From Lunularia cruciata (lineage: Eukaryota > Streptophyta > Marchantiopsida > Lunulariales > Lunulariaceae), in the NCBI GenBank assembly GCA_948567375.1, contig OX419756.1, forward strand, positions 63,626,333-63,690,332: 64,000 nt of DNA. The letters are read 5' to 3'. Below, in pieces: positions 13 to 44,764 of this stretch (positions are counted from its first letter, which is position 1; every line of letters begins with the position of its first letter). Below the pieces are notes generated by a model. That model had not been told where the DNA came from. It saw only the letters and a list, made by a program, of their open reading frames with translations, and did no database searches. The translations under genes and the position numbers were made by a program.

Positions 13-3000
13 TGTGACAACCTGGAAAATATCACTTTTGCAGTAATTGGGTAAGTAAAGTTTGTTCCCGCAGAGATACAAGTCAAAATTGGTCAAATAC
101 AAAGCAAAGTAACAATTTAGTTCTTCTTGAGTTCTTCTTTAGTCTCTTAGGTAGAAACTACACCCAGAAGAGAGTAACAAGCACTGATCCACAGTCTTGT
201 CACAAAGTAACACTCCTTAATCACAACTCCATCAAATCTTTCCAAATAATCTTGATTGTGATGAATCAGGCTCTCCCAAAAATGGCACTTCATTGCAAAA
301 CAACTTCACCTCAGAATTGTGTTCCAACCTTCCACTGAAAGCACAACTTCCTCAAACAAAATTGCTTCACATCAACTTTGCATTGCTCTCACAAATGTAG
401 AATACTACCAACACTACAATTCCTCTCAGATCTATCAAGGCATTGCTCCGATTGCACGTCACTCATGATCAACCACACAGAATGAAGATCAAGGCTGCGG
501 AATCCAACATCCAACAAGCACTTTGACTTGCACTTTGAATTTCTTCACACACTCACAAACACAATTGCAAAGCTGATACTTGGAATCAAGCTTAAGCACG
601 AGTACTGCTTCACAACACTTGACTTGATCTATTCTCAAAAATAATGAGCACTGAACAACATAATATTGCAAATGTCACTCTTAAATAGTGAAGCAATTGA
701 CAGTTATCTTCCTAATGTACCTCTTCCTAATGACTCTACAAACCTGCAGATCCGAAATGACAATGCACCTCTTCATATCTGCCTATTCAAATCTCAAATC
801 AGTTTCTAATCCGATCCGATGTCTACTTCTTCCTTGGCTTTCAAACCCAATCCTGAAGTAACTTTACTTCCTACTGCTATGTCCTCGAGTTTCATATCTC
901 CTACATCTTCTACCAGATCCAACAATTCTCTTTCCTGATCTGAAATTTCACTCATGGGTAATCTATCTAACTCCTTATCTCCCGACCCACTCTTCTCTAT
1001 TGTCTTCAATGGTAGCTCCAAAGACATCTGCACTCCTACTTCATCTACTTCGGGTTTGGCTCTAACGTCTTTCCGAAGTTTATCTTTCTCTAATTTCACT
1101 AAGCCTAGTCTAATTGCAATATTATCTTCTACTTCTAATATCTTCCTATCTACACGAGTCTCGAGACTTATTAATAGCACGTTCAAATCTGTGTCTTTCA
1201 CCTGTCTCCTCCTCATCTCCTGCACCAACAACTTCAACTCATGCAGCCTCGTCTCCTCAATCCAAATACTGGCCTCTGTACTTAACATTGCATTCATTTT
1301 GATGACAATCTCCTTCAATGGCTCTAATCGCATCTTCCTTCCCATTCCCAATCTGCAAGCCAATCTTCTCTGTACATTGCCAATTTTGCCTTGAACTCAG
1401 CTTTAACTGTTTCTTTCTCCTTCTCCTTTTGCTCAATCTTCTCCTCATGATTACAAAGTAACTCTCGTAATCTCTCTTCTTCCCTATATCTTACTGTCAA
1501 CTCCCGCTGCCACAGTTGCTTCTTCTCTTCTACACTCTCCATCACTCTATCAAGTTCTTGTTCCTTCACTGCTACCCTCGCCATAGCATGGATAATTTCA
1601 AGTCTGGAATCAGCAAACTGCTACTTCAAGATTTCATTTTCTGCTACTTGTCTTTCCCTTGCTATGTCACTTTTCTTCACAATTTCTTCTTGATACCTTG
1701 CTTCTCTCTTCAAGTCTTCAATCATTTGATTCTATACTACTGCTTCCTCTTGCAGTACTTCCCTTTCCTCCTCACCTTGGGTTATACTCTTCTTCAACTC
1801 CAAGTTCTCTTCTTCCAATCTTGCCAAAACCTGCAACACAATATTCACCTCCGGACATGTCGACTGCATCTCCATCTTCTTGTGCTCCAACTTCACCAAC
1901 AATGGACACATAATCTCCCGTATGTACTCCACTCCACCACTTGCAACTATTTCCTCTTGCGTAGCGATCTCCTTCCTTACTTCTTCACCCAATACTCGCC
2001 TTCTTCTCTATAGTCTTTGTATCAGAATCGACGCCTTATTTCCCGAGCTAGCATTTGCTTCTTCTCTTGCCTTACTCGGACCCACTTCACACTTTGCCTT
2101 GAGTCTTGAACAAACTCCCCTCTAGATTGTAAACTTCTTCTCCTCAGGCTCGGGTATCTCATCCTCCAACTTCTCAATAATTTCTTCTTTGAGCTCCACC
2201 CAAACTTCTTCTTCTTCAGCAGCAACAGCAGGTACCGACGTCATCTCTCCACCTTCATCACTATCGCTACTCGTATCTCCACTTTGCAGCGTGAGCTCTG
2301 GTTTTTCCTTGCGTTCCGAGTCTTTGGACTTGCACTCGGCTTTGCCTTCCGAGTCTTTGTCTGACGTCGCGATCACCACTATGCCTTTCCTCAAGTTTCC
2401 TCTCCTGACTTTCCGAGGTCTTGTCTTGTCTTCGGCTTCTCCTTGATGACTCCGCTTCTTCAACTTTGGAGTACTCACTTCTATCTCCATGCTCTTACAC
2501 GTCTTTGTGTAGTACTCATCCGTGCTCCGGATTTGAAGAATGTATTGCTGCTCCTCCACGTTGACTTCTCTTCTCAAGTCAAGATAAAAGTGAGACACCA
2601 TTCGGTTTTGCTCCACCAAATTGAGCAAATTCAACCCGAGGTAGAAATGTGCTGCAAATGGCATGATGTAGTGTGGAGGCAACTTTTACGCAAATTCCAC
2701 ACCATCAGTCTTGTCTTTCCATAGAAGCACCTTGCCCAATTAATCGGTTCTCTTGCAAATAGCTTATGGAAAAACACCGCTTGGTGTTTCATCACATAAG
2801 TTGTTCTCTCCGGCTTCAAGATCGCCATGAGAGCACTTACAATCCCTCTCTTCACTGGATCCTTGTAACTCTCAACCTTATACCCATTCTTTGTTCTCTT
2901 CAAAGAGAAAGCATCCCTCACTTCTTGAGTCTCTTCTGCTACTTCTCCCTTACCCAAGAATGTGGCACCTTGCTCCGTGCCTACCTCTATCCAGAGCACT

Positions 3001-3786
3001 AATCTCCAATCCAACTTTGTCCAGCGAGCCGGATTTCCTCACTTCCCCTCTTCCTTGTGGCCATCAAGACACTTACTCTCGATTATCTCCATCATGAAAC
3101 CTAGAAAATTGACATTCTAGTTCCACGCCAAGAAGATGATCCAAAGTCGGCTCAAGACTTTGATCCTCGCGATCACATCTAACCTCCGAATTGCATGATT
3201 TCTCACTACAAATTTGGAGTTCTTCTTTCCTCCTCCCATCTCTCCTGCTTTCTCATTGTCTCTCGGTTTCACTCTCTCAAACTCTCCTTTACACACTAGC
3301 ACGTCTTCAACTCTACTTCCCTTCCCACGATCACCTGTAGGACGACTTCTCAACGGCAAAGGAAAATTACTTGACATTGCTTCATTGTTTGCTCAATTTT
3401 TAAAGAGTCATGCTTTCTTCATCTCTCTATAATTTGAGTTTCTACCGAGAAATCACACCTCTTGCATGCGCCTGTCACTGTCAATTGTACTTCACGCGTA
3501 TGGGCCACCGGTTTTGAACAGTCCCTTCTTGAATTTCTTGCCCCGACAAAAGGTTGTTACACTATCTTTGCCTCAGGTTGAGCTCCTCCCGATACGAAGA
3601 CTCCTTACTTTGGGTTGGATGCTGACAGGGCATATCCGAGTACTTTGGCTTGTGACCCAAAGCCTCTTTACCTCAGTTTTCATCCCAAAGACTCTTTTCT
3701 TCACCTTCTTCAGCCATACAAGTGCAATCCGACTTCTCTATACACTTCTTCTTCTCTATTTGAAAAAAAAATTTGTGGGCACCACA
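13..3786 (-). repeat. Solo LTR A0 of family A, inserted in B1
   Basis: On the minus strand it starts with the family A LTR terminus (complement of 3786, TGTGGTGCCC) and ends in TTGTCACA (complement of 13). Its 3774 bp is close to the 3.78 kb of complete A LTRs. No primer site or polypurine tract flanks it, so it is a solo LTR left by LTR-LTR recombination. The bases outside it, CACCT (8-12) and GAACT (3787-3791), align to the uninterrupted site in B2 near 49155 and are read as a decayed 5-bp target duplication. It is clearly more diverged than the LTRs of A1 and A2. Confidence 0.9.
806..3377 (-). pseudogene. LTR-encoded coiled-coil ORF, decayed copy in solo LTR A0
   Basis: This is the same protein as the frame in the LTRs of A1 and A2. 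It begins at the equivalent ATG (MSSNFPLPLRSR) and ends at the equivalent VDIGSD. The N-terminal globular block (3377-2640), the acidic middle (around 2200-2450), the coiled coil (about 2000-1250) and the C-terminal tail are all recognisable. The frame changes at least twice (near 2680 and in the coiled coil) and has stops, so it cannot make a full protein. The span is almost the same length as the 2574 nt of intact-length copies. Function unknown. Confidence 0.8.
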
Positions 3787-6972: not shown

Positions 6973-7359
6973 TGTGGTGCCCACATTCTTGTTTTTTTTC
7001 AAAATAAAGCAGAAGAAGTGTATAGAGAAGTCGGATTGCGCCTGGTTGGCCAAAGAAGACGAAGAAAATTGTCTTCGGGGTGAAACCCGAAGTAAAGTGA
7101 CCTCGGGTCATAAGGTGAAGTACTCTGAAATGCCGTGTCAGCAAACGATACGAAGTAAATTGTCTTTGGATCGGGGGGGAGCTCAACCCGAGGCAAAGAC
7201 AGTCTAACAACCTTTCGTCGGGGCGAGAAATTCAAGAAGGGGCGGTTTCAAAATTGGCGGCTCATATGCGTGAAAGTGGGGCGACAGTAACGGGTGCATG
7301 CAGGAGGTGTGATTTCTCGATAGAAACTCGAAGTGACGGAAGACGAAGAAGTGCAACTC

Positions 7360-7367
7360 TATAAAAA
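7360..7367 (+). promoter_or_regulatory. TATA-like box just upstream of the LTR ORF
   Basis: TATAAAAA sits 27 nt before the ATG at 7387. It is present at the same place in the A1 3' LTR and, on the minus strand, in both A2 LTRs. A start 30-35 nt downstream would fall at or just after this ATG, so either the transcript is nearly leaderless, the next in-frame ATG (7525) is used, or the box is fortuitous. It is the only candidate promoter that would express the LTR frame separately. Confidence 0.35.
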
Positions 7368-7386
7368 TCGAAACTGCAACGACAAA

Positions 7387-9960
7387 ATGTCAAGCAATTT
7401 TCCTTCGCCGTTGAGGAGTCGTCTTGCAGGTGATCGGGGAAAGGGACATAGCGTTGGCCTCGGGTTAGTGCATAAGGGAGAAGTCAAGAGAGAGAAATCG
7501 AGAGACCGAAAGAAAGCAGAAGAGATGGGAGGAGGGAAGAAGAACTCCGAATTTGCAGTGAGAAATCATGCAATTTGGAGATTAGATGTAGTAGCAAGGA
7601 TCGAAGTCTTGAGCCGACTTCGGATCACCTTTCTGGCATGGAATTGGAACATAAGTTTTCCAGGATTCATGATAGAAATCATCAAGAGTAAATGTCTCGA
7701 TGGTCCCGAGGAAGAAGGGAAGAGAGGAAATCCGGCTCGCTGGACAGAGTCGGATTGGAGACTCATACTCGGGAAGGAGGCAGGCTCGGAGCATGGGGCC
7801 ACGTTCTTGGGGAAAGGAGAGATAGCTCAAGAAACGTAGGAGGTGAGAGAAGCCTTCTCATCGAAGAGGACGAAGAATGGGTATAAAGTTGAGAGTTATA
7901 AGGACCCAGTGAGGAGGGGAATTGTGAGTGCACTAATGGCCCTCCTGAAGCCAGAGAGAACTACCTATGTGATGAAACACCAAGCGGTGTTCTTTCACAA
8001 GTTATTTGCAGGAGAACCGATAAATTGGGCAAGGTGCTTTCACGGAAGAACGAGGCAGATGGTGTGGAATCTGCGAGATAAGTTGCCTCCACACTACATC
8101 GTACCATTTGCAGCCCACTTTTACCTCGGGTTAAATCTGCTCAATGTGGCTGAGCGTAATCGAATGGTGTCTCATTTCCATCCTGATTTGAGAAGAGAAG
8201 TCGACACGGAGGAGCAGCAATACATTCTCCAAATCCGGAGCGCAGACGATTACTACGCGAAGACAGGGAAGAGCGTGGAGGTCGTTGAAAGTACCCCGAC
8301 AAAGAAGAGAACTCGGCAAGCAGACGCCGAAGAAAACAAGAAACCTCGGAAGATGCAGAAAAATAACCCGAGGCAAGGAATGGTGGTGATTGAGTCGGAA
8401 GATGAAGACTCAGAAGGCAAAGCCGAGCTCAAGACGGAGGACTCGGAACGTGAGGAGGAACCTGAGCTGACACTGCAGAGTGGAGATACAAGCAGTGATA
8501 GTGAAGACGGTGGAGAAATGACCTCGGCACCAGTGCCTGAAGAATACGAAGAAGAAATTCAAGCCGAAGTAAAAGCCGAAGACAATGCGGCGCTAGAAGA
8601 CGAAGTACCGGTGCTCGAGGAGAAGAAGATTGTAGTATAGCGCGGAATTTGCTCGAGACGTAAGGCGAAGGGTGAAGCGGGACCGAGTAGAGTGAAGGAA
8701 GAGGTAGAAGGAAGCTCGGGCAGTGAGGCATCAATTCCGATACAAAGGCTCCAGAGAAGAAGGCGAGAATCGGGAGAACACAAAGAAAGAAGAGAGACTA
8801 CTCCGAGGGAGGACGAAGGTATCACTAATGGAGTAGATTACCTGCAGATGGTAGTATGCCCGCTGTTGGTGAAGTTGGAGAAGAAGAAGAAGGAGATGCA
8901 GTCAACTTGTCCAGAGGTAAAGACTGTATTGCAGGTGGTATCGAGATTAGAAAAAGAAAACTTGGAGTTGAAGAAGAGTATAACCCGAGGTGAGAAGGAG
9001 AGAGAAGTACTGCAAGTGGAAGCAGTGGAGAGAAGTCAAGTAATCGAAGACCTGAGGAGAGAAGTGAGCTATCGAGAGGATCTTGCGAGGAAGAGTGACG
9101 TCGTAAGGGAGAGACAAGTAGCTGAATTTGAAATCTTGAAGCAGCAGTTTGCTGATTCAAGAGTAGAGCTCATCCATGCTATGGCGAGAGTAGCATCGAA
9201 GGATCAAGAGCTCGATCGAGTGATGGAGAGTATGGAGGAGAAGAAGCAACTTTGGCAGCGAGAGTTGGCTGCGAGATATGGAGAAGAAGAGAGATTACGA
9301 GACTTACTTCGTAATCAGGAAGAAAAGGTTGCACAGAAGGAGAAAGAGAAGGACGCGGTGAAGGCCGAATTTGAAGAAGAGTTGGCGATGTATAGAGAGG
9401 AATGGCTTGCAGATCGGGAACGAGAAAGGAAGACAAGATTAGAGCCATTGCAGGAGATAGTCCTCAGGGTAAATGCGATGTTGAGTACAGAGACCAGCAT
9501 TTGAATTGAAGAAGCGTGTTTGCACGAGTTAAAACTGTTGGTGTAGGAAACAAGGCGAAGACAAGCAAAAGATACAGATTTGAATGCCTTGTTGATTAAA
9601 TTGAGAACTCGTGTAGATAGGAAGATTTTAGAAGTAGAAGACAATATCGCGATTAGATTAGACTTAGTAAGAATAGAGTTAGAAAAGCTTCGGCAGGATG
9701 TTAAAGCAAAACCCGACGTAGATAACATCGGGATCCAAATGTCTTCGGAGTTGGCCTCAGCGACAGTAGAGAAGAGTGGGTCGAAAGATGAAGAGTTAGA
9801 TAGATTGCCCGCTAGTGCAATTTCAGATCAGGAAAGAGAATTGCTAGATCTGGTAGAAGATGTAAGAGTTGTGAAACCCGAGGACAGAATAGTAGGAAGT
9901 AAAGTTACTTTGGGTTCGGGTTTGAAAGCCGAGGAAGAAGTAGACATCGGATCGGATTAG
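7387..9960 (+). pseudogene. LTR (U3)-encoded coiled-coil protein, A1 5' LTR copy with four stops
   Basis: One frame runs from 7324 (after an in-frame TAG) to the stop at 9958-9960. The first ATG shared by all copies is 7387 (MSSNFPSPLRSR), giving 857 codons. Residues about 45-255 look globular (WTESDWRLIL; TYVMKHQAVFFHKLFAGEPI). About 270-430 is acidic and Ser-rich. About 450-700 is a Glu/Lys/Arg-rich heptad coiled coil, and the rest is an acidic tail ending VDIGSD. In-frame stops are at 7837-7839 (TAG), 8638-8640 (TAG), 9502-9504 (TGA) and about 9544-9546 (TAG). Each corresponds to CAG or CGA in a sister copy. There are no frameshifts. Function unknown. It lies where Athila elements carry an env-like ORF, but inside the LTR. 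Confidence 0.85.
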
Positions 9961-10077
9961 TAACCGATTTGAGATTTGAAGGGGCAGATATGAAGAGGTG
10001 CATTGTCATTTCGGATCTGCAGGTTAGAACAGTTGTTGTAGAAACGGTATAGTTGTTAGAATTGTCGATTGCTTCAC

Positions 10078-10086
10078 TATTTAAGA
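10078..10086 (+). promoter_or_regulatory. U3/R TATA box of the A1 5' LTR
   Basis: CTATTTAAG about 670 bp before the LTR end is the probable promoter of the genomic RNA. It is conserved in the A1 3' LTR (near 20028), on the minus strand in both A2 LTRs (near 30195 and 40150), and in the older LTR at 27786-29524 (near 29017). Transcription would begin about 30 bp downstream, so the LTR ORF lies upstream of this promoter in the 5' LTR and at the 3' end of the genomic RNA in the 3' LTR. Confidence 0.6.
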
Positions 10087-10762
10087 GTGCCATTCGTAGG
10101 AACTTGTTGTTCAGTGCTCATTATTTCTGAGAATAGATAAAGTGAAGTGCTGTGAAGTAGTGCTCATCGCTTGAGCTTGATTCCGAGTATCAACTTTGCA
10201 ATTGTGTTTATGAATGTTTGGAGAAATTCGAAGTGCAAGTCAGAGTGCTTGTTGGATGTTGGATTCCACAGCCTTGATCTTCATTCTGTGTGTTTGATCC
10301 TGAGTGAAGTGCAATCAAAGCAATGCCTTGACAGATCTAAGAGGAATTGTAGTGTTGGTAGTATTCTGCATTTGTGAGTGCAGTGCGAAGTTGATGTGAA
10401 GCAATTTTGATCGAGGAAGTTGTGCCTTCAGTGGAAGGGTGGAACACAATTATGAGGCAAAGTCATTTTGCAGTGAAGTGCCGTTTTTGGGAGAGCCTAA
10501 ATCATCACAAATCAAGATTGTTTGGAAAGATTTGATGGAGTTGTGATTATGGAGTGTTAATTTGTGACAAGACTGCGAGTCAGTGCTTGTTACTCTCTTC
10601 TGGGTGTGGTTTCTACCTAAGAGATTAAAGACGCAACCAAGAAGAACTGAAATTGCTACTTTGCTTCGTATTTGGACATTTCTGACTCGTATCTCTGCGG
10701 GAACAAACTTTACTTACCCGATTACCGCAAAGGTGATATTTGTCGGGTTGTCACATGATTTT

Positions 10763-10780
10763 TGGCGCCGCTGCCGGGGA
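10763..10780 (+). other. Primer binding site for tRNA-Asp (A1)
   Basis: TGGCGCCGCTGCCGGGGA, 7 bp after the LTR end, is complementary to the 3' end of plant tRNA-Asp(GTC) including CCA, with one mismatch (C for T at position 9). A2 carries the same site with a different single mismatch. It primes minus-strand DNA synthesis. Confidence 0.85.
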
Positions 10781-10843
10781 TACAAATCTCGGAAGTGGAA
10801 GAATACGAAGCCAAATTGAACATTGGGTATCAAGGCAATATGA

Positions 10844-12990
10844 ATGTCTGGATTGAAAGAACAACGGGAAGAGAGAGCCCGAAGATGAGCACTTCAGCGT
10901 GAAGAAGACAAACGTCTGAACGTCCCATCCATCGTTGACGAAACTGAGCGAGAGGCGTTGGAGTTTCAACTCCTTCATGAAGTGCAAGAAGCCCTACGAG
11001 AACTTGATCACAAGAAACGCAAAGGCGATTGGCAAGGCTACTTCGCATCTCCCTCTTCTTCCAAGAAGAAGAAAGAATCGAGTGGGCAAACATATGCATT
11101 GCGGCCCAGTACCCCAACTTCCCCTAGAGCTGTAAAGGAAGTTGTTTCCTTGAAGACCTTTGTTCGAGAAAAGACAGCACGCACACTTACTGAAGACGAG
11201 TGTCAACATCTTCTACGAACGATTCCTCGGTTGTCCCGAAGGAATTTGGAAGAACTTATTGAAGGTGTTGATCCTGAATCTTCCACTCGGGTTGAAGTCG
11301 ACGCTCTCAGAGTAGAAATTGTCAAAGAAGACCCTGTGTTGAATTTGACGAATTGGAATCCCTGGGCTGACAACACGGTGTCAATTCCAGCCAATTCTTC
11401 CGGTCCGTCAAGTTCTACATTCCCTCAGCCGATCCCAGTGCCTCAAACGATGACTTCGCTTCCTGTCACCCGACACGCCTATCAGAAGTATAAGGGGACG
11501 GAACAAGACGAAGACCCCGATGAATTCATCGAAGAATTCGAAGTCATCTCCTTTGCTAACAAGGAGCATGACTCGGCGGATCGACTAAGAATCTTTCCAA
11601 GTCTGCTTTGCAAGAAAGCTCGGAGCTGGTACACGCATGTGACTCAGAAGGGGTTTGTACCATCGGACTGGGCAGACTTGAGAAACAACTTCCTGGAACG
11701 ATTCCGGGAGGTTGACTATGATACGAGTGTCTTCGCGGCACTAAATGATTAGGACCGGGGCAAGAAGGAGAAGTTGAGAGACTACTCTGAGCGGTTCATG
11801 GCATTACTGAACCGAGTTCCCAAGCAATCGGGGGTGGTGGGATACTCCGATGCCCAAGCCATTACCTGGTTCCTCGGGGGCCTGTCACCAAAGATACAAA
11901 TCTTTGCCAGGGAGAGGAACGTAACTTCCCTCGATAAAGTACTCAAACATGTCGCTCGTTATGAAGCGGCACACTCTCACTCTGCCGGTAACCGGAGAAA
12001 TCGGGAGAAGAAGGGCAAGAAGCCCAGAAGGAGAGCTTCACGCAGTACCTCCCCTTCTTCGGACGAATCCTCTACGTCTTCAAGCTCTTCTTTGGAATCC
12101 GAAGAAGAATCAAAGCCAAGACGAGTCAGAAGACGTGGAGGCAAGAAACCAGTGACGTCACCAGCCAAGAGTGTACATAAGGCGGATACGAAGCTGGATG
12201 CCCTTATCAAGGATTTTTTGGATTTCAAGATCCAGATGATTGGGGCTAAGGACCAAAGAAAGGCCCCCGCATTTGGACGATCTAATGTGTGGTGCACCGC
12301 CTGTGGAAAATCCGGCCACGCCAACACAGAATGCAATACTCGTAATGCATTCCCGATGCAGCAAATTGATTGGGTTCCAGGATGGAACCAAGACAATGAC
12401 GAAGAGGCGGTGTATCAAACTCAAGAGGTACAGCCTCAACCGAGCACATCATATCAAGGTCCGAGGTTGGGACCAGGGAGTATAACCCCAATGCTCCTGC
12501 ACGAAGACCACCGATGAGCAACCAAAATCGCCCTCAGAATGTTGCGCTCGGAGCCTGTTATAATTGTGGCTCGATGGGACATTGGTCTCCAAATTGTCCC
12601 GAGCCAAGAAGGCAAATTGGGTACGTTCCCCTATGTGGAAATTGTAAAGGATCGGGGCATACGGGCAACCAATGCCCTCACCCGCTGAACCCGAAGCCTC
12701 TTGTAAAATATGTACAGACCCCCGCTGAGCGTGCAGCACTTCAGCCGAAGGGAGATACGAATGTGAATTGTATAACTCTGGAGGAAGAAAGACCTCACGA
12801 AGGGAGTCCGGCCTCAGAAGGAGAATGGCCAGACCTTGAAATTTTGAAAGTTGAGACACGCTCCACCAAGAAGAAGTGTGATCCCGAAGAACGGAGTATG
12901 ACCTCGTCGTCTTCCCAAAAGGCAAAGAGATAGCGCCCAAAAGCAATTCTTTCGGCGAAGGAGGAAAAGATCCTTGCAAAAGCTAAAGCT
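10844..12990 (+). pseudogene. gag: A1 gag with three CCHC zinc knuckles, broken
   Basis: The ATG at 10844 (MSGLKEQREE) matches the A2 start. A retrotransposon capsid domain follows (DPDEFIEEFEVISF, then RLRIFPSLLCKKARSWY, about 11500-11720), then an Arg/Ser-rich stretch (11990-12140). Three nucleocapsid knuckles come next: CTACGKSGHANTEC, CYNCGSMGHWSPNC and CGNCKGSGHTGNQC. Breaks: TGA near 10890 (CGA in A2), TAG at 11750-11752, a 1-bp deletion near 12474 relative to A2 that shifts the frame between knuckles 1 and 2, and TAG at 12931-12933 (CAG in A2). Gag forms the particle and binds element RNA. Confidence 0.88.
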
Positions 12991-15900
12991 AAAGCCTTGC
13001 AGAAAGAATTAACGGTGGCATTACTCAGGACTCGGGAACTAAGTTTGGAAGAAGAGACAAAGACGAAGTCTCCAATTTTTCCGGCGGACATCCAATCCAA
13101 AGTAAAGGGTCTGATTCAAGCCGAGGTAGGCCCACCCGAGGAAGCTCAGGTTAAGGCCACCAGCAAGCCCGTCACCATTTTGAAGCGTCCCGAAGTCAAG
13201 AGGGAGCATGGAGAGTCCTCAAACTCAAAGCCGAAGACGAAGACGGTCAAATTGGGAGGAGTTCCCCAATATGATATTATAGCCGACTTGGCCACCACAA
13301 ATGCCAATGTTACATTTAAGCAATTGTGGGAAGATAACAAGCTGTACAAAAGACAGCTTAATTTGACCCTCAAGAAGGTGAGGTCAATGTCAAAGAAGGA
13401 CCTACCTGCTATCTATTGTATTGAACAAGAAGATTTGGGATCTCCCAAGGTAGACGCGGAGATTGCAGGCTGCATGATCACATCGATACCCATTGACTCT
13501 GGGTCCGGTGTGAATGTCATGACTGAAGATACTGCGAATCGACTCGGGTATCATACGTTTGAACCAACACCTCGAGTTTTGAAGTTTGCAGACCAAACCA
13601 AGAGACGGCCCTTGGGCATGCTGTCGAACATTACCACGATCATTGGAGGGGTACCCTTCAAGTTGAATTACATCGTGTTGCGGCCAGTGACAAAAATTGG
13701 TTACCCTCTATTGATCAGCAGACCCTGGTTGTATAGTGCCCAAGTTGTAGTGGATTGGCATCAGCAGAAGTTAAGATTCAAGGACATTTTGTCCAAGGAT
13801 CAGAAGCTGGTGACTGTGAGTTGGACGAAGGTTCCCCATCTTGGGGAAACAAGTTTGTCAGAAGAGGAGGACGAGTCCAAAGTTTCATCGTCTTCGTCTT
13901 CAGACGAATCTAAAGAAGAAGTCCAAGTTAATTACTTGGAATGCTACGAGGTAGAGGCTGACGACGAAGATCCATATGACCTTGCCTCGGGTGAACCTAA
14001 CTTGGAGGGAGGGGGTTTGATGGCCGCTCGCCTCGGGATAAGCCGAGTAAGCCACGTTGAAGGAGTCATCAACCCCGATGACTGTTAAGAGGTGTTACTC
14101 ACTAAAGGAAAAATTTTAAAAATCTCGAAGACAGTTACTTTGGAGGAGTTGGCAGGATACACTGCCCTGTTTATAGAATTCCAGGATGTATTCGCCTGGT
14201 CGATTGATCAAATGCCGGGTATTCCACGAGAATTTGGAGAACACCGGATTGATTTGATTGAAGGTGCAATTCCGGTTCGGCAGCGACAATACCGCTTGAA
14301 CCCGAAGTACTCGCTCTTGGTAAAAGATGAAATCGATAAGTACTTAGGGGCCGGAATCATCTTCCTTGTCTTAAGCAGTGAATGGGTCTCCCCCATTATC
14401 ATTGTCCCAAAGAAGAAAACAGGGAAGATCCGAGTGTGCCAAGACTTCCGAAAATTGAACGCAGTCACAAGGAAAGATCATCATCCCTTGCCTTTTACCG
14501 ATACAATCTTAGACCAGGTGGCTGGGCATCCTTGTTATAGTTTTCTCGATGGATTTTCAGGGTACAATCAAGTATCCATTCGAGAAGAAGACAAGGATAA
14601 AACTACATTCACGACCGATTGGGGCACTTTTGCTTACAATCAAATGCACTTTGGGTTGTGTAATGCTCCCGCTACTTTCCAACGGATGATGAATTCAATC
14701 TTTAAAGATTTCTTGCGCAAATTTGTTGAAGTTTTTATTGATGACTTTTGTGTGTTTGGATGACAGGATGTACATAGAGATTACCTTCGCCAAACATTTG
14801 AAAGGTGTCGTTTTGCCGGCTTGTCATTACACCCGGAGAAATGCTTCTTTGCAATGAAGGAGGGAATTCTTCTGGGGCATCGGGTGTCAAGCCGAGGTAT
14901 TGAAGTCGATGTTGAGAAGGTTAAAATAATCGCAGCTTTGGAATCCCCAAAGAACATCCGGGAGCTGAGAGCCTTCTTGGGACATGTCGGATATTACAGA
15001 CGCTTCGTGTCAAACTATGCAGTGCTTGTTGCACCACTTACAAAGCTTCTGAAGAAATCCAAAGACTATCTGTGGGAAGCACATCAAGAAGAAGCCTTCC
15101 AGGTGTTGAAGAAGAAACTGGTTGAAGCACCAGTCTTGAGGGCCCCGAATTGGGACGTCCCTTTTCATGTGTATGTGGACACTTCGTCCATGGCAATCGG
15201 GGTTGTCTTAAGTCAAAAGGACGAGAAGAAGAAAGACTACCCGATGTATTACGCCAGCCGACAACTTTCAGTTTCTGGAAAGAATTATTCGATGACGGAA
15301 AGAGAAGCACTCGGAATGGTGTATGCCTGCAAGAAATTTCGGCATTATTTGTTGGGGTATGAGTTTGTCTTCTATGTTGACCATTATGCATTGCAACATC
15401 TGGTCAAGAAGGCAGATTTATTGGGACGAATTGCAAGATGGATCTTGTTATTACAAGAGTTCACGTATACTGTACAAGTGAGGAAGGGAGCTTCACATTC
15501 AAATGCGGACTTCCTGTCCAGGTTAGACACTCAAGACCAGGAGTGGGAAATTGACGATCGGTTCCCTGACGAAGAGTTGTATCACTTATCAGCAATGAGA
15601 AGTACGAGGTATGCAGATGAATATAATTATCTAATACTCTCCATTGTCCTGAGGGGATGGATCCGGAACAGCGGGCAGTCTTTCTCCGGAAAATGGGGCC
15701 GTACCAGCTAAAACACAGCATTTTATTTAAGATGGGCGAAGATGAAGTACTTCGGCGATGCTTGGAGTCATACGAAGTAGGAGTAATTGAATCTTTACAC
15801 TCCGAGGCATCGGGAGGACACTATGCTCTGAAGAATACTGTAAAGAAAATTCTTTCGGCAGGGTATTGGTGGCCTACAATGTACAAAGATGTACATGCTC

Positions 15901-16911
15901 ATATTTGAAGCTGTGATGCGTGTCAGAGAACAGGGAAGCCGACGGCCACTTCTCAATGGCCTTTGAAACCAATTTTGCCTTTGGCCCCCTTTGAGAAATG
16001 GGGTATTGATTTTGTGGGTCCCATTCAACCAGTAACCCGAGTCACAAGAAAGCGATATATTTTGGTTTGCACTGATTATGCTACCAAGATGGTTGAAGCG
16101 GAAGCAACTCGCAGAGATGATGCTGAAACTGTGGCGGAATTTTTCTTTCGAAACATCATCTTCCGATATGGGTGTCCTCTGGAATTGGTTAGTGACCGAG
16201 GAACACATTTTTTGAACTCTGTAATGGAGGAGTTAACCAAGTATTTTCAGATTAAACATCGGAAGACGACTCCTTATAACCCAAAAGCGAATGGCTTAAC
16301 GGAAAAAGCGAATGGGTTACTTTGTAAAATTTTGAATAAGGTGATTGTCAATTATGCCTATGACTGGGATACAAAATTACCAGCCGCATTATGGGCCTAT
16401 CGGACAACAGAGAAGATTACAACCAAACAAACTCCATACTTCTTGACATATGGCTTGCACCCCATACTGCCAGTTGAATTTGAAGTTCCAACTTATCGAG
16501 TCCTGTGCGAAGAATGAATGTCGGAAGAGGAAAGTCAGGATCTTTGGATTCAACAACTGATGTGGTTACAAGAGAAACGAGACGATGCAATGCAAACCAC
16601 GAAAGAAGTACAAGCACAACGGAAAGTCAGGCACGATCAGAGAATCAAGCCTGTGACTGTACGAGAAGGGGATTTGGTTTTGTTATATGATAATCGCCGA
16701 ATATTTTTTCCAGGCAAGTTGCATTTGCGATGGATGGGTCCCTATTGAGTTCGTCATCTTTACGAAAATGGATCCATGCAACTCGTCGATTTGGAAGGTA
16801 ATCCTTTTGCCACTCAAGTAAACGGGTGGAGAGTTCGGAGATATTGGACCATAGACTTGGAAGTTTCTAAGACACCCGAGGTCTATGTTCGCGAGGACGC
16901 TCACATTTGAG
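12991..16911 (+). pseudogene. pol: A1 pol: protease, RT, RNase H, integrase, broken
   Basis: Order: aspartic protease with IDSGSGVNVMT (13490-13530); RT with DHHPLPFTDTILDQV, FLDGFSGYNQVS and FIDDFCVFG (14100-14760); RNase H with VDTSSMAIGVVLSQ and the VDHYALQHL region (15170-15520); integrase with a zinc finger ending CDACQ (15910), and a DDE core with CTDYATK, SDRGTHF and NGLTEKANG (16070-16320). The C-terminus is short and has no chromodomain. Breaks: TAA at 14086-14088, TGA at 14761-14763, a 1-bp deletion near 15632, and TGA at 15906-15908, 16515-16517 and 16746-16748. Most are C-to-T relative to A2. The final TGA overlaps the polypurine tract. Confidence 0.92.
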
Positions 16912-16920
16912 GGAGGGGGT
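16910..16920 (+). other. Polypurine tract (A1)
   Basis: GAGGGAGGGGG, 2 bp before the 3' LTR, primes plus-strand DNA synthesis. It overlaps the last bases of the pol stop codon (TGA, 16909-16911). The A2 copy is identical on the minus strand (33312-33322). Confidence 0.88.
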
Positions 16921-16922
16921 AT

Positions 16923-19900
16923 GAAGTGCCCACATTTTTGTTTTTTTTCAAAACAAAGCAGAAGAAGGATATAGAGAAGTCGGGTTGCGCCTGGTTGGCC
17001 GAAGAAGACGAAGAAAACTATCTTTGGGGTGAAACCCGAAGTAAAGTGACCTCGGGTCATAAGGCGAAGTACTCTGAAATGCGGTGTCAGCAAACGATAC
17101 GAAGTAAATTGTCTTCGGATCGGGGGGGAGCTCAACCCGAGGCAAAGACAATCTAACAACCTTTTGTCGGAGCAAGAAATTCAAGAAGGGGCGGTTTCAA
17201 AATTGGCGGCTCATACGCGTGAAGGTGGGGCGACAGTAACGGGTGCATGCAAGAGGTGTGATTTCTCGGTAGAAACTCAAAGTGACGGAAGACGAAGAAG
17301 TGCAACTCTATAAAAATCAAAACTGCAATGACAAAATGTCGAGCAATTTTCCTTCGCCATTGAGGAGTCGTCTTGTAGGTGATCGGGGAAAGGGACATAG
17401 CGTTGGCCTCGGGTTAGTGCATAAGGGAGAAGTCGAGAGAGAGAAATCGAGAGACCGAAAGAAAGCAGAAGAGATGGGAGGAGGGAAGAAGAACTCCGAA
17501 TTTGCAGTGAGAAATCATGCAATTCGGAGATTAGATGTAGTAGCAAGGATTGAAGTCTTGAGCCGACTTCGGATCACCTTTCTGGCATGGAATTGGAACA
17601 TAAGTTTTCCAGGATTCATGACAGAAACCATCAAGAGTAAATGTCTTGATGGTCCCGAGGAAGAAGGGAAGAGAGGAAATCCGGCTCGCTGGACAGAGTC
17701 GGATTGGAGACTCGTACTCGAGAAGGAGGCAGGCTCGGAGCATGGGGCCACGTTCTTGGGGAAAGGAGAGATAGCTCAAGAAACGTAGGAGGTGAGAGAA
17801 GCCTTCTCGTCGAAGAGGACGAAGAATGGGTATAAAGTTGAGAGTTATAAGGACCCAGTGAGGAGGGGAATTGTGAGTGCACTAATGGCCCTCCTGAAGC
17901 TGGAGAGAACTACCTATGTGATGAAACACCAAGCGGTGTTCTTTCACAAGTTATTTGCAGGAGAACCGATAAATTGGGCAAGGTGCTTTCACGGAAGAAC
18001 GAGGCAGATGGTGTGGAATCTGCGAGATAAGTCGCCTCCACACTACATCGTACCATTTGCAGCCCACTTTTACCTCGGGTTAAATCTGCTCAATGTGGCT
18101 GAGCGTAATCGAATGGTGTCTCATTTCCATCCTGATTTGAGAAGAGAAGTCGATGCGGAGGAGCAGCAATACATTCTCCAAATCCGGAGCGCAGACGATT
18201 ACTACGCGAAGATAGGGAAGAGCGTGGAGGTCGTTGAAAGTACCCCGACAAAGAAGAGAACTTGGCAAGCAGACGCCGAAGAAAACAAGAAACCTCGGAA
18301 GATGCAAAAAAATAACCCGAGGCGAGGAATGGTGGTGATTGAGTCGGAAGATGAAGACTCAAAAGGCGAAGCCGAGCTCAAGACGGAGGACTCGGAACGT
18401 GAGGAGGAACCTGAGCTGACACTGCAGAGTGGAGATACAAGCAGTGATAGTGAAGACGGTGGAGAAATGACCTCGGCACCAGTGCTTGAAGAATACGAAG
18501 AAGAAATTCAAGCCGAAGTAAAAGCCAAAGACAATGCGGCGCTGGAAGACGAAGTACCGGTGCTCGAGGAGAAGAAGATCGTAGTACAGCACGGAATTTG
18601 CTCAAGACGTAAGGCGAAGGGTGAAGCGGGACCGAGTAGAGTGAAGGAAGAGATAGAAGGAAGCTCGGGCAGTGAGGCATCAATTCCGATACGAAGGCTC
18701 CAGAGAAGAAGGCGAGAATCGGGAGAACACAAAGAAAGAAGAGAGACTACTCCGAGGGAGGACGAAGGTATCACTAATGGAGTAGATTACCTGCAGATGG
18801 TAGTATGCCCGCTGTTGGTGAAGTTGGAGAAGAAGAAGAAGGAGATGCAGTCGACTTGTCCAGAGGTAAAGACTATATTGCAGGTGGTATCAAGATTAGA
18901 AGAAGAAAACTCGGAGTTGAAGAAGAGTATAACCCGAGGTGAGAAGGAGAGAGAAGTACTGCAAGTGGAAGCAGTGGAGAGAAGTTTGGTAATCAAAGAC
19001 CTGAGGAGAGAAGTGAGCTATCGAGAGGATCTTGTGAGGAAGAGTGACGTCGTAAGGGAGAGACAAGTAGCTGAATTTGAAATCTTGAAGCAGCAGTTTG
19101 CTGATTCAAGAGTAGAGCTCATCCATGCTATGGCGAGAGTAGCATCGAAGGATCAAGAGCTCGATCAAGTGATGGAGAGTATGGAGGAGAAGAAGCAACT
19201 TTGGCAGCGAGAGTTGGCTGCGAGATATAGAGAAGAAGAGAGATTACGAGACTTACTTCATAATCAGGAAGAAAAGGTTGCACAGAAGGAGAAAGAGAAG
19301 GACGCGGTGAAGGCCAAATTCGAAGAAGAGTTGGCGATGTACAGAGAGGAATGGCTTGCAGATCGGGAACGAGAAAGGAAGACAAGATTAGAGCCATTGC
19401 AGGAGATAGTCCTCAGGGTAAACGCGATGTTGAGTACAGAGACCAGCGTTCGAATTGAAGAAGCGTGTTTGCACGAGTTAAAACTATTGGTGTAGGAAAC
19501 AAGGCAAAGACAAGCAAAAGATACAGATTTGAATGCCTTGTTGATTAAATTGAGAACTCGTGTAGATAGGAAGATTTTAGAAGTAGAAGACAATATCACG
19601 ATTAGATTAGACTTAGTAAGAATAGAGTTAGAAAAGCTTTGGCAGGATGTTAAAGCAAAACCCGACGTAGATAACATCGGGATCCAAATGTCTTCGGAGT
19701 TGGCCTCAGCGACAGTAGAGAAGAGTGGGTTGAAAGATGAAGAGTTAGATAGATTGCCCGCTAGTGCAATTTCAGATCAGGAAAGAGAATTGTTGGATCT
19801 GGTAGAAGATGTAAGAGTTGTGAAACCCGAGGACAGAATAGTAGGAAGTAAAGTTACTTCGGGTTCGGGTTTGAAAGCCGAGGAAGAAGTAGACATCGGA

Positions 19901-20704
19901 TCGGATTAGTAACCGATTTGAGATTTGAAGGGGCAGATATGAAGAGGTGCATTGTCATTTCGGATCTGCAGGTTAGAACAGCTGTTGTAGAAACGGTATA
20001 GTTGTTAGAACTGTCGATTGCTTCACTATTTAAGAGTGGCATTCGCATGAACTTATTGTTCAGTGCTCATTATTTCTGAGAATAGATAAAGCGAAGTGTT
20101 GTGAAGCAGTGCTCGTCGCTTGAGCTTGATTCCGAGTATCAACTTTGCAATTGTATTTGTGAATGTTTGGAGAAATTTAAAGTGCAAGTCAGAGTGCTTG
20201 TTGGATGTTGGATTCCACAGCCTTGATCTTCATTCTGTGTGTTTGATCCTGAGTGAAGTGCAATCGAAGCAATGCCTTGACAGATCTAAGAGGAATTGTA
20301 GTGCTGGTAGTATTCTGCATTTGTGAGTGCAGTGCAAAGTTGATGTGAAGCAATTTTGATCGAGGAAGTTGTGCCTTCAGTGGAAGGGTGGAACACAATT
20401 CTGAGGCGAAGTTGTTTTGCAGTGAAGTGCCGTTTTCGGGAGAGCCTGAATCATCACAAATCAAGATTGTTTGGAAAGATTTGATGGAGTTGTGATTATG
20501 GAGTGTTAATTTGTGACAAGACTGTGAGTCAGTGCTTGTTACTCTCTTCTGGGTGTGGTTTCTACCTGAGAGATTAAAGACGCAACCAAGAAGAACTGAA
20601 ATTGTTACTTTGCTTCGTATTTGGACATTTCTGACTCGTATCTCTGCGGGAACGAACTTTACTTACCCGATTACCGCAAAAGTGATATTTGCCGGGTTGT
20701 CACA
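16923..20704 (+). repeat. A1 3' LTR, 3782 bp
   Basis: Starts TGAAGTGCCC, with two substitutions against the family terminus, and ends GGGTTGTCACA. It is colinear with the 5' LTR over its full length, including the ORF, both TATA-like boxes and U5. The junction with B1 at 20705 carries the second GGGAT. Confidence 0.95.
17336..19909 (+). pseudogene. LTR (U3)-encoded coiled-coil protein, A1 3' LTR copy with two stops
   Basis: Same 2574-nt frame as at 7387-9960, with stops only at 17786-17788 (TAG, shared with the 5' copy, CAG in A2) and 19493-19495 (TAG, also CAG in A2). The stretch 17792-19495 is open for 567 codons and spans the globular domain, the acidic region and most of the coiled coil. 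This copy lies downstream of integrase, so it would be part of the 3' end of the genomic RNA and could be reached by splicing or an internal promoter. The stop shared by both LTRs was probably present when A1 inserted. Function unknown. Confidence 0.85.
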
Positions 20705-20709
20705 GGGAT
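20705..20709. repeat. Target site duplication GGGAT, right copy (A1)
   Basis: Matches 6968-6972 exactly; B1 coding sequence resumes here. Confidence 0.93.
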
Positions 20710-22607: not shown

Positions 22608-22645
22608 AGAGACCTTCACTTTGAGGACAAAGTGAAAAGTTAGCC

Positions 22646-22655
22646 CGGGGGTAAA
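22646..22655 (+). other. Polypurine tract (B1)
   Basis: CGGGGGTAAA lies directly before the B1 3' LTR. The B2 equivalent (complement of about 44765-44775) is AGAGGTAAA. It is weaker than the family A tract. Confidence 0.55.
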
Positions 22656-23347: not shown

Positions 23348-26193
23348 GGTCATGGGTAACCTTTCTAACTCTTTATCTTTGACACACTCTTCTCTAATGT
23401 CTCAAGTGACAACTCCAAAGACACTTGCACTCCTACTTCTGCTACTTTGGACTTCTTCTCCTCCTTCACACTACTCCTAAGTCTCTATAACTCTGAATTC
23501 ACTAAGTCTTATCTTAGACTTACATTGTCTCCTATCTCAATTATCTTCCTATCTTCTCTTTCCCTCAGACAAATCAGAAGAGTGTTCATATCTACATCTT
23601 TTGCTCTCCTCTTTGAGTTTCCTTCACAAGCAATTTCAATTTGTGCAGTCTCACTTCCTCCAATCTCCCTTTAGAATCAGTGCTCAACATTGCTTGCAAT
23701 CTCCCAACCACTTCTCCTATTGATTTTGATGCATACCTCCAAGATCATTCTGCCTTCAACTCTTCTTGGTACATCTTTAACTCATCTTTGTACTCAATAG
23801 CAAGCATCTTCTTCTATTTGGGATACTTATCACTCTATGTCTCAACACTTCTAACCAAGCCTTGCAATCTTTTCTCCTCTTGGTGTCAAATCACCAACTC
23901 CCTTTGCCATGCTTGATCTTTTTGTTCTGCACTCTTCCTTAGGTTCTCTTAACTCTTGGTCCATCATAGCCGCCATTGCCTCCACATGAATACTTTTGAT
24001 GCAAACTTCATAGACTTCCTCTTTCATCTTTGTCAGAAATACCATCTGCTCGTTCAAGTCTATGGGTTGATTGTGCATCTCTCTTCTCCACTTCTTGAAA
24101 CTCTCCTACAAGTTCTCTAAAGTCTTCTTCTTCAAGACTACATCCACCAGAAGTTCCTTGGCTTCTTCTTCTCTTTGGGTTACACTCTCCTTCAATCACT
24201 TTGTCCAATAGATACTTCACCACCTGCGACTCATTCTTCATCTTCATATGATCTTGCAAGATTACCTTCTTCTATGTATTCAGCAGCTCCAACAATGGAG
24301 TCACAATTTGCATTAAGTATTTTGCTCCCTCAAAGCCTTCTTTGTCTTTGGCTTCATCTTTGCACTTTGCTTCTTCCACCAAAGCTTTCTCCTAGAGTCT
24401 TGATCTTTGTACTTTCAGCAATATTGCTCCAAGCGTTCTTCTTTCTTACAAACTAAGCTCACACTTGCAGGTTCAACTATTAAGGATTCCTTGGGTCTAC
24501 CTCCTTTCTGGTCTTCCTTCTTTAGCTCTTCATCCATTTCCTCCATAGCTAATTCTAAACAAGTGTTATCTCTTCCCTCCATACAATCAATTGTTGCATG
24601 AAATGCCTCATCTTCTTCCACCTTAGTCAATTGTTGGACTTCCTCTTCACCATCACTCTCACTTCCATATTTTTCACTTTGTAGTGTGAGCTTGGCTTCT
24701 TTTGAGTCTCCTTCTCTAGACTCTATCTCTCCTTCAAACTTTGAACTCTGATGTCTCCTCCTTCACCATCTTCTTACCTCACATGTTGAGTCTTTGGGTC
24801 TTTCATTGTGTCTAGGGAAATGCTACCTCTTTGGATTTAGTCCGCTTCTTTGTCTTTGGACTTCTTCCTTCCACCATCTCCCTTTGTCCTATTTTGATGA
24901 AGTGATCATTGTTGGCATGCAATTGTAACATATATTGCTGCTCCTCTTCATCCGCATCTTTTCATAGATCAGGATGGAAATTTGACACCATGTGTTGCTT
25001 CTCTTAGTTGTCAACAAATTAAATCCAAAGTAGAAGTGTGCTGCAAATAGTGAAAAGTAATGTGGAGGTGAATTGGTTCTCCAATTGATGATCATCTTCC
25101 TTGTTTGCTAGTCGAAGCACTTCACCTAATTCACCTTCACTCTTGCAAACATCTGGTGGAAGAAGACTACCTGCTGCATGTTCACGTATGTCATTCTTTT
25201 GAGTTTGAACATAACCATTATCACTTCCACAATGCTCTGCTTGATTGGGTCCCAATAGGACTCCACTTTGGAGCCACTGTTAGCATGTGAGGCAAAGAAC
25301 AAGTTTCTGATTTCCACAATCTCCTTTATAGCATCACACTTTTGATAGAATGTCCCAATTTGCCTCCCTTGCTTCCTTCCCAATACTAAACTCCAATCCG
25401 ACTCAGTCCATTGAGCCGGATTTCCTCTCTTCCGCTTGACTTTGGGGCCTTCCTCACAATTATTGGTAGCTATTGCTGCCATGACGCTTGGAAAATTGAA
25501 ATTCTAGTTCCATGCCAAGAATGTAATCCAAAATCTATTCAAGACCTTGATCCTAGCTATGACATCTAATCTCCAAATTACAAAACTCCTCACAGCGAGT
25601 GCATTCTTAGTCTTCTTAAGCATGATTTGCTCTCTATTTCTTTGGCACTAGAAAACTATCTCCTCTCCTAGACGCAACACCATGATCCCTTCTAGACTTT
25701 GAAAAATTTCACTCTCAATAGGCTTCTTGATGCATATTACTATAGGACTACTACTTAGAGGAACAAGATATTTACTTGACATATTTGATTTTCACCCCAT
25801 GCAATTGCAATTTTATGGTACCCCAAAGTGCAATCATTCTTCAGTCAATTTCAAAATCGACTCCCACTTCTTCTGCATGTTAGTTTCCTATCAATGTCAA
25901 GGTATTCTTCTCCTGCCTCTGCGGTTTCTTGAAGTGTACTTTCTTGCCTAGCCTGACACATAGAGAGGTTGTTACACCGTCTTTGTATCGGCCTTAGCTT
26001 CTTGGTCTAAAGATACCTTTCTTTGAATTTGTCTCTTTGTAATCCAATCCTAGTACTTTTGGTTCCCAACCCAAGGTTGACTTCTTTAGGTTCACTCCAA
26101 AGATAGACAAGTCCATTCTTTCCTTTGTAATTTGGCTTTCTTAATTCACTTCTTCCTCAAAACTTTAACAAAACAAAAAATGTGGGTACTACA
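23348..26193 (-). repeat. Old A-like LTR fragment (target of B1)
   Basis: On the minus strand it begins at 26193 with TGTAGTACCCACA, a variant of the family A terminus, and runs through the first part of U3 and most of the LTR ORF before it is cut by B1 at 23347. It is much more diverged than A0, A1 or A2 and shares the ACCCACATTTTT start with the LTRs at 27786 and 51769, which suggests an older subfamily (A'). Its U5 end would lie beyond the left end of B1. Confidence 0.8.
23400..25500 (-). pseudogene. LTR ORF remnant of the older A' subfamily
   Basis: Homologous to the LTR frame of A1/A2 but strongly diverged and broken into short stretches. The best-preserved part (25482-25126) encodes KRGNPAQWTESDWSLVLG and a segment reading TYVNMQQVVFFHQMFA, matching the globular domain of the younger copies. 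The acidic middle (about 24700-24500) and parts of the coiled coil (24259-23851) can also be followed. Boundaries are approximate. Confidence 0.7.
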
Positions 26194-32500: not shown

Positions 32501-33309
32501 CTCCTTCCCGAGTACGAGTCTCCAATCCGTCTGTGTCCAGCGAGCCGGATTTCCTCTCTTCCCTTCTTCCTCGGGACCATTGAGACATTTACTCTCGATG
32601 ATTTCTGTCATGAATCCTGGAAAACTTATGTTCCAATTCCATGCCAGAGAGGTGATCCGAAGTTGGCTCAAGACTTCGATCCTCGCTACTACATCTAATC
32701 TCAGAATTGCATGATTTCTCACTGCAAATTCAGAGTTCTTCTTTCCTCCTCCCATCTCTTCTGCTTTCTTTTGGTCTCTCGATTTCTCTCTCTCGACTTC
32801 TCCCTTATGCACTAACCCGAGGCCAACACTATGTCCCTTTCCCCAATCACCTGCAAGACGACTCCTCAACGGCGAAGGAAAATTGCTCGACATTTTGTCG
32901 TTGCAGTTTTGATTTTTATAGAGTTGCACGTCTTCGTCTTCCGTCACTTCGAGTTTCTACCGAGAAATCACACCTCCTGCATGCACCCGTTACTGTCACC
33001 TCACCTTCATGCGTATGAGCCGCCAATTTTGAAACCGCCTCTTCTTGAATTTCTCGCCCCGACGAAAGGTTGTTAGACTGTCTTTGCCTCGGGTTGAGCT
33101 CCCCTCCCCGATCCGAAGACAATTTACTTCATATCGTTTGCTGACACGGCATTTCAGAGTACTTCGCCTTATGACCCGAGGTCACTTTACTTCGGGTTTC
33201 ACCCCGAAGACAGTTTTTGTCGTCTTCTTTGGCCAACCAGGCGCAATCCGACTTCTCTATACACTTCTTCGGCTTTATTTTGAAAAAAACAAAAAATGTG
33301 GGCACCACA
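29525..33309 (-). repeat. A2 3' LTR, 3785 bp
   Basis: Full-length family A LTR, minus strand, TGTGGTGCCC to TTGTCACA. It carries the LTR ORF with a single stop. It abuts an A' LTR of opposite orientation at 29524, so the two U5 ends form an inverted repeat with a short spacer. Confidence 0.95.
30320..32893 (-). pseudogene. LTR (U3)-encoded coiled-coil protein, A2 3' LTR copy with one stop
   Basis: The best-preserved copy: 857 codons from the ATG at 32893 (frame open from a GTG at 32947), broken only by TGA at 31535-31537, which is CGA in A1. The N-terminal 450 codons and the C-terminal 396 codons are each open. Residues about 45-255: GNPARWTQTDWRLVLG, YKVESYKDPVKRGIV, TYVMKHQAVFFHKLFA, then PHYIVPFAAHFYLGLNLL. 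Acidic Ser-rich linker with EEEPELTLQSGDTSSDS. Long coiled coil from about 470, with repeated EEK/EKE and REL/EEL heptads. The tail ends EEEVDIGSD. No signal peptide, membrane segment or known catalytic motif seen. Confidence 0.87.
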
Positions 33310-44604: not shown

Positions 44605-44764
44605 TCCTCTAAAGTAAAGTCCCCTCTATCTTAGCTATGACTAACTTTAGCTAACCATGACTAATATAGAACCATCCTTTATCTCTATATAAATAATATC
44701 TCTTAAGTACTTGTAATACCAAGCTAAATATCACAATACCACACATGCACAAATGGGTGTTACA
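44605..44764 (-). repeat. B2 3' LTR, truncated (160 of about 691 bp)
   Basis: Complement starts TGTAACACCCATTTGTGCATG at 44764 and matches the B2 5' LTR until 44605, where the A-like LTR terminus (TGTCACA, 44604) takes over. No promoter portion remains. Confidence 0.88.

Follow-up and report, generated by a model that had tools for sequence, protein, structure and literature searches.

Plant long terminal repeats (LTRs) are normally non-coding, which raises the question of what an open reading frame (ORF) of 2628 nt is doing inside the LTRs of a retrotransposon family in the genome of Lunularia cruciata. The window analysed here, that is the whole 64,000-nt stretch C2:63626333-63690332 of a 566-Mb genome assembly, holds by self-comparison two full elements of this family, A1 (+) and A2 (-), in which 3.78-kb LTRs enclose an internal region of 6.17 kb, plus the LTR copy A0. 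The frame fills most of U3, the upstream portion of the LTR, which is ~3.1 kb long if a TATTTAA box discussed below drives the genomic RNA. Taken together, our comparisons suggest that this frame is a true protein-coding gene residing in the LTRs of a Ty3/gypsy lineage that resembles Athila, with the route of expression and the trans-acting role proposed below, a reading to which we give a probability of roughly 0.6.

The four stop-to-stop frames that the initial annotation had reported are all recovered (7333-9960 and 17282-19909 on the plus strand, 30320-32947 and 40275-42902 on the minus strand). Aligned, they differ by no insertion or deletion and their stops have arisen by substitution only, the other copies of the four having CAG, CAA or CGA at these places, just as had been claimed; besides the terminal TAG there are four internal stops in the A1 5' copy, two in A1 3', one in A2 3' and two in A2 5'. 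Because an element inserts with two identical LTRs, changes within a pair date from after insertion, whereas A1-versus-A2 changes shared by both LTRs record the active lineage. In the four-frame alignment the fixed A1/A2 differences are distributed 40/22/99 over codon positions 1, 2 and 3, versus 21/20/20 within the A1 pair and 23/29/36 within the A2 pair. Among the fixed changes 98 are synonymous (44.9 expected), 60 are nonsynonymous and 3 are stops (omega, the dN/dS ratio, 0.25), and none of 2000 simulations with the spectrum of base changes preserved reached 98 synonymous changes; within pairs the split is 54/87/4 (omega 0.79), a result reached in 220 of 2000 simulations. Raw Nei-Gojobori (NG86) values for the U3 frame are 0.19 for A1 versus A2, with 0.04-0.07 over 7843-8301, and 0.42-0.47 within LTR pairs, which is the neutral yardstick of NG86 here. 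Read in its two shifted frames the whole stretch gives 0.80 and 1.14 (range 0.76-1.14), and short segments in shifted frames scatter from 0.22 to 3.12, as expected given few changes. Between elements omega is thus well under 1 and not near it, in line with the selection that the initial annotation had proposed.

Similar counts come from the wider A family. Among eleven copies, variants present in at least three are distributed 31/24/86 by codon position, singletons 52/53/63 and other patterns 19/13/25, and one distinct gap (of one base) was counted over ~1.8 kb of the frame versus six in the 0.4 kb upstream. With an 801-nt query, copy lengths vary between 802 and 817, yet in 28 of 33 copies they agree with A1 and A2 modulo three, the 33 being those of 41 matches that span the whole query, itself excluded, and being related rather than independent copies. 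Missing indels are weak evidence in any case, and we rejected their absence as proof of coding, since the neutral LTR pairs are also nearly gap-free (with 0 gap positions to 111 mismatches and 2 to 128). The strong evidence is the codon-position bias combined with protein-level similarity between copies. On these grounds we regard the frame as a true gene and no chance opening, which purifying selection maintained as long as the lineage was active and which decays neutrally after insertion.

The LTR is correctly delimited, with the 2628-nt frame inside it, because the target-site duplication (TSD), the polypurine tract (PPT) and primer binding site (PBS) junctions and the Pfam matches of the internal region all fit (Table 1). 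A1 is flanked by a TSD; none was seen at A2 despite intact LTR ends (ACGCT and TACTG at the flanks). The PBS, TGGCGCCGCTGCCGGGGA, which would match tRNA-Asp as is typical of the Athila lineage, starts after seven bases from the end of the A1 5' LTR. At the other end the PPT shares two bases with the pol stop (TGA, 16908-16910), and the A1 3' LTR begins two bases past it. A PPT and LTR start downstream of the ORF, an arrangement that would have refuted the initial annotation if present in most copies, was found nowhere: they lie upstream wherever the junction is seen (A1, A2, L019, L022). The gag-pol region (10757-16907) is one frame with a few stops in A2 and is frame-shifted as well in A1; the stop density of the single A2 frame resembles that of the U3 gene. 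Pfam searches on pieces detected gag (weakly, in A1), a zinc knuckle (A2), reverse transcriptase (RT; A1), RNase H (A1 and A2) and integrase (A2), with a protease match in A1 and A2 that was below the cut-off both times, and reported no chromodomain in a 660-aa A2 piece. This gypsy order of gag, protease, RT, RNase H and integrase without a chromodomain is that of the Athila lineage, and equally fits any non-chromovirus gypsy element. The RNase H in the scanned pieces is RT-linked only; a diverged additional RNase H, given as the mark of Tat, the sister clade of Athila (PMC6317226), could escape a Pfam scan.

How widespread and how old is this layout? At the protein level the U3 frame is recognised in A0 and in six older places of the window. 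The decayed versions described earlier, in A0 and at three of these places, lie much where they had been put (Table 1), and we add remnants at 51811-52500 (+), 28641-28895 (+) and 27703-27251 (-). The ATG at 7387 marks the onset of homology, with MSS(N/K)(F/Y)P.PL kept in older subfamilies; of 32 N-termini, 23 have the core downstream in frame with it, five have it in another frame and four have no recognised core, and a 30-nt gap sets the A family apart from other copies. Near residue 12, a TGA is common to older copies (L018, L019, L020, L024, L025, L027) at a codon that is CAA or something else in the remainder, which may reflect the loss of a methylated CpG. In the regions surrounding members of an older subfamily (L013-L032) the gene is recognised at mostly 26-60% protein identity in 20 of 20 regions, a biased sample in that it was picked by the gene itself, and all three PBS-bearing R/U5 ends there have the gene's C-terminal part at most 400 nt upstream. 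In a sample independent of the gene, 15 of 17 PBS-joined LTRs have the C-terminal part directly before R/U5 (the 17 being every sixth of 100 listed among 1443 LTR-end/PBS junctions, all exact matches, on two contigs). Moreover, no copy of the gene lies between pol and the PPT at the A1, A2, L019 and L022 junctions, nor is there one by the distances of 16 hand-matched PBS/PPT pairs among the junctions listed, A2 included, which are 5.97-6.2 kb apart. The layout is common to every subfamily in which a PBS-joined LTR was observed, and its same place in older subfamilies indicates that it is old. Of the initial annotation, then, the U3 location, the purifying selection while active and the two copies per element stand; descent from an ORF between integrase and LTR that was later engulfed is a conjecture, the gene never having been seen internally at these junctions and pairs.

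Three of our observations go beyond that annotation, namely an excess of LTR ends, a cassette mosaic and a TATA box before the gene. With three mismatches allowed, the genome has 1443 LTR-end/PBS junctions, 1462 PPT/LTR-start junctions and 9671 LTR ends (0 in each reversed control). LTR ends thus exceed internal junctions more than sixfold, as would be expected if many LTRs were solo. The mosaic emerges from A1 and A2 themselves. Their gag-pol regions differ by 2.9%, evenly (per 180 nt mean 5.7, variance 5.4; dS 0.053, omega 0.43), which is about the amount that post-insertion decay alone would give, whereas their LTRs differ unevenly (per 180 nt mean 14.0, variance 90.3), most of the divergence lying in two blocks, a core cassette (~7818-8196) and a second, or coil, cassette (8748-8883). 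Over the 2.2 kb compared, the two core haplotypes differ at 75 sites, of which 55 are in the core cassette and 54 are third-position; since the differences are mostly third-position, the donor would have been long diverged and selected for the same protein. Eleven copies contain three of the four possible combinations: core1/coil1 (both A1 LTRs, L002, L004), core2/coil1 (L003, L005, L006, L008) and core2/coil2 (both A2 LTRs, L007). We take this mosaic, found in the LTR only and not in the A1/A2 gag-pol, as evidence of recombination between lineages that were probably co-active, and infer that it arose by template switching between co-packaged RNAs.

Counted from the ATG, the encoded protein has ~857 residues, in which an acidic linker joins a conserved N-terminal domain (~47-295) to a C-terminal half that is long and charged. 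A hydropathy scan showed no obvious membrane segment (best 19-residue value 1.06; no dedicated transmembrane predictor), and on this ground an envelope-like protein is disfavoured. Searches of the window and of genome pieces with hmmscan gave no credible Pfam match: the weak matches (E 0.0025-0.46) were under the cut-off wherever one was shown and agreed upon no single family, PF03078 (Athila ORF-1), PF04195 and PF10536 were absent, and no superantigen family appeared among matches with E up to 1 (up to 10 in further scans). Neither PDB nor IMG/VR yielded a relative, nor did a set of 5.8 billion proteins, a set evidently without Lunularia in which the element's own copies went unmatched as well. 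The protein would be an accessory, non-enzymatic and non-envelope factor acting in trans; binding to ribonucleoprotein or Gag, or an anti-silencing role at the LTR, is our guess at what it does.

How might such a gene be expressed? Upstream of the ATG, at -25 to -34, a TATAW motif is present in 29 of 32 distinct N-termini (30 of 33 listed, L010 and L013 being the same locus); copies of the A family, along with L026, which is A-like, have it at -27/-28 and the rest at -33/-34 (one at -25). Of the three N-termini that lack it, two have CATAA and one TTTAA. This count covers N-termini detectable by blastn, more decayed ones falling outside. When 32 aligned stretches were scored with the A family down-weighted, CTATAA was the best-conserved upstream hexamer (0.944 vs a mean column of 0.71); it is also more conserved than ATGTCA, the coding region's first hexamer (0.908). 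Its distance to the ATG varies by 6-7 nt between subfamilies, so it does not belong to a single reading frame extended upstream, and the simplest reading is that this TATA is the gene's own promoter. Past the gene's stop a TATTTAA box, which all 12 aligned LTRs from several subfamilies share, presumably drives the genomic RNA, which would place the gene in U3 and make its 3' LTR copy the last gene of the genomic RNA. Reverse transcription would copy U3 into both LTRs, so that each new insertion would start with two identical gene copies, and LTR-LTR recombination would leave a solo LTR still bearing the gene. The protein would be made from transcripts that begin at the TATA upstream of the ATG and terminate at the poly(A) site of the same LTR, or alternatively from spliced genomic RNA with the T-tract/AG at the LTR start as acceptor, and would serve as a trans-acting accessory factor, neither enzyme nor envelope. 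Read-through from pol was rejected as a route, the gene frame being offset from the pol frame by two bases according to the coordinates.

Several observations weigh against a selected and expressed LTR gene. No copy of A1, A2 or A0 in the window is free of internal stops, and neither are most of the older pieces that were translated. An 801-nt stretch of the A0 subfamily (the acidic linker and surroundings, 25 copies) has a weaker codon-position bias (shared variants 62/59/90, singletons 43/24/27), and of its 12 distinct gaps 5 disrupt the triplet phase while 7 are multiples of three. One PBS-bearing LTR with R/U5 kept (L065) has no detectable gene, apparently through internal deletion, so an LTR may lack the gene in cis, and another PBS-sampled LTR (L061) is truncated. 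A heptad signal reaches significance in only one of five protein segments (436-560, p 0.009, uncorrected). Lastly, with the TATA 25-34 nt before the ATG, the usual start distance leaves almost no 5' untranslated region, and the alternative spliced leader would contain conserved upstream ATGs.

These last points bear on two other accounts of expression. According to one, the protein comes from a spliced mRNA with its acceptor at the LTR start, the TATA has no promoter role and the 5' and solo copies are silent by-products. A T-tract plus AG at the LTR start of A0, A1, A2, L019 and L022 would suit such an mRNA, and so would the position after pol, as for the Athila env-like ORFs (PMC7264820, PMC1142308); however, conserved ATGs lie between the candidate acceptor and the gene, and CTATAA as the top upstream hexamer amid diverging flanks is left unexplained. 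We lean away from this account while treating it as a serious possibility. Equally tentative is the idea that CTATAA, rather than acting as a promoter, serves the element as a signal for 3'-end formation or RNA structure. Plant poly(A) signals can also be A/T-rich hexamers, and the ATG is rather near for a TATA-driven mRNA with a leader, but the spacing to the ATG is nearly fixed (-27/-28 or -33/-34, one -25) although the flanks have diverged.

Where the gene came from is a separate matter, on which known systems bear. The layout reads as like that of the mouse mammary tumour virus (MMTV) sag gene and would have evolved independently. In MMTV the whole sag frame lies in U3, several U3 promoters are described, and one right before the 3' LTR yields an unspliced sag mRNA (PMC12789967). 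The two share a complete ORF in U3, hence in both LTRs, upstream of the presumed genomic-RNA promoter. However, sag belongs to an animal retrovirus and is described as a type II membrane protein (PMC12789967), whereas here there is no obvious membrane segment and no env, and Pfam revealed no sequence relationship. Among plant elements, the env-less Diaspora of soybean (Athila clade; LTR 2524 bp, pol end 128 bp from the PPT; PMC1142308) similarly has an unusually long LTR, pol ending near the PPT and no env-like gene, but its report gives no lengthy ORF in the other five frames (PMC1142308), unlike our 3.78-kb LTR with its 857-codon gene and its pol stop overlapping the PPT. Retand, Grande and RIRE2, also plant Ty3/gypsy elements, likewise have conserved extra ORFs close to their 3' ends, though theirs are antisense and in the internal region (PMC7264820). 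In Athila4, Calypso and Bagy-2 the additional ORF is in the sense direction downstream of pol, as here, but internal, between pol and the 3' LTR and before the PPT (PMC7264820, PMC1142308), whereas ours lies past the PPT, in the LTR, and has no obvious membrane segment. The titles and abstract openings of the open-licence PMC literature searched reported no LTR-resident plant ORF.

These elements suggest that the frame might be the env-like ORF3 of the Athila lineage, engulfed when the PPT shifted upstream to the end of pol. Orientation and order are the same, pol and then the ORF, and the pol stop now overlaps the PPT. We nevertheless consider this rather unlikely: no sense ORF lies between the pol stop and the PPT at A1, A2, L019 and L022, no gene copy is found there by these junctions or by the 16 PBS-PPT distances, hydropathy gives no obvious transmembrane segment, and no credible Pfam match was obtained, the Athila ORF-1 family included. 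That the frame is a chance opening in purine-rich, low-stop, non-coding DNA is highly improbable, for although base composition is purine-skewed and no database homologue was found, the codon-position bias is confined to changes predating insertion, length changes are mostly in-frame, and protein identity between subfamilies is 26-60% with E down to 1e-102.

More speculatively, the LTR might be a self-contained mobile gene of 3.8 kb, with its own TATA, 857 codons, the genomic promoter and poly(A), which multiplies via solo LTRs and swaps cassettes during reverse transcription. We think this unlikely; if it were true, the gene would multiply apart from gag-pol (9671 LTR ends versus ~1450 internal junctions), and cassette swaps would possibly alter the RNA seen by small-RNA silencing while the protein is kept.

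Table 1. Features of the window, with positions counted from its first nucleotide
Feature	Position	Strand	Basis
U3 gene, A1 5' LTR copy (ATG 7387, TAG 9958-9960; stop-to-stop frame from 7333)	7387..9960	+	frame, stops
U3 gene, A1 3' LTR copy	17336..19909	+	frame alignment
U3 gene, A2 3' LTR copy (one internal stop)	30320..32893	-	frame alignment
U3 gene, A2 5' LTR copy	40275..42848	-	frame alignment
Core cassette, two haplotypes ~14-17% apart, mainly third-position differences	7818..8196	+	copy alignment
Second recombining cassette, in charged C-terminal half	8748..8883	+	copy alignment
Candidate TATA box P1, TATAAAA, 27 nt before ATG	7360..7366	+	TATAW conservation
Presumed genomic-RNA promoter P2, TATTTAA, ~120 nt past gene stop	10078..10084	+	conservation
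T-rich tract ending in AG at LTR start, putative splice acceptor	6986..7012	+	A0, A1, A2, L019, L022
A1 5' LTR, TGTGG...TCACA	6973..10755	+	self-comparison, junction sequences
A1 3' LTR	16922..20704	+	self-comparison, junction sequences
A1 TSD, GGGAT	6968-6972 and 20705-20709		both flanks of A1
A2 3' LTR	29525..33309	-	self-comparison, junction sequences
A2 5' LTR	39481..43263	-	self-comparison, junction sequences
A0 LTR copy, gene version decayed	13..3786	-	self-comparison, junctions, frame alignment, tblastn
PBS, TGGCGCCGCTGCCGGGGA	10763..10780	+	distance from A1 5' LTR end
PPT, GAGGGAGGGGG	16909..16919	+	overlap with pol stop
gag-pol region of A1, start approximate	10958..16910	+	Pfam on pieces, frames, junction
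Older decayed gene copy	23392..25782	-	tblastn, N-terminus comparison
Older decayed gene copy, limits from tblastn	55744..58537	+	tblastn
C-terminal remnant, adjoins R/U5-like stretch 52498-53320	51811..52500	+	tblastn, self-comparison
C-terminal remnant, adjoins R/U5-like stretch 43761-44605	43287..43796	+	tblastn, self-comparison

Elsewhere in the window another gag-pol element is present twice, on opposite strands and at 93-95% identity (4602-6975 with 20706-22820 vs 49028-44602), and the A1 insertion sits within the first of these copies. A large inverted repeat built of LTR-end segments, 82% identical, occupies 58647-59767.

Plant LTRs are viewed as repeats with a regulatory and no coding role, and a selected gene in U3 would be overlooked, masked by repeat annotation; a review of extra ORFs speaks of the internal region (PMC7264820). 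What we describe is a real, old and selected LTR gene, U3-resident genes being known already from MMTV. With two copies per insertion and one per solo LTR, such a gene could outlive its element, and many LTR copies genome-wide would each hold a copy or remnant of it. The system also offers an unusually clear internal control: over one and the same frame, the LTR pair of an element records neutral decay, whereas comparison of different elements reveals selection. With LTR copies in this genome numbering in the thousands, the role of the extra proteins of plant retrotransposons would become testable.

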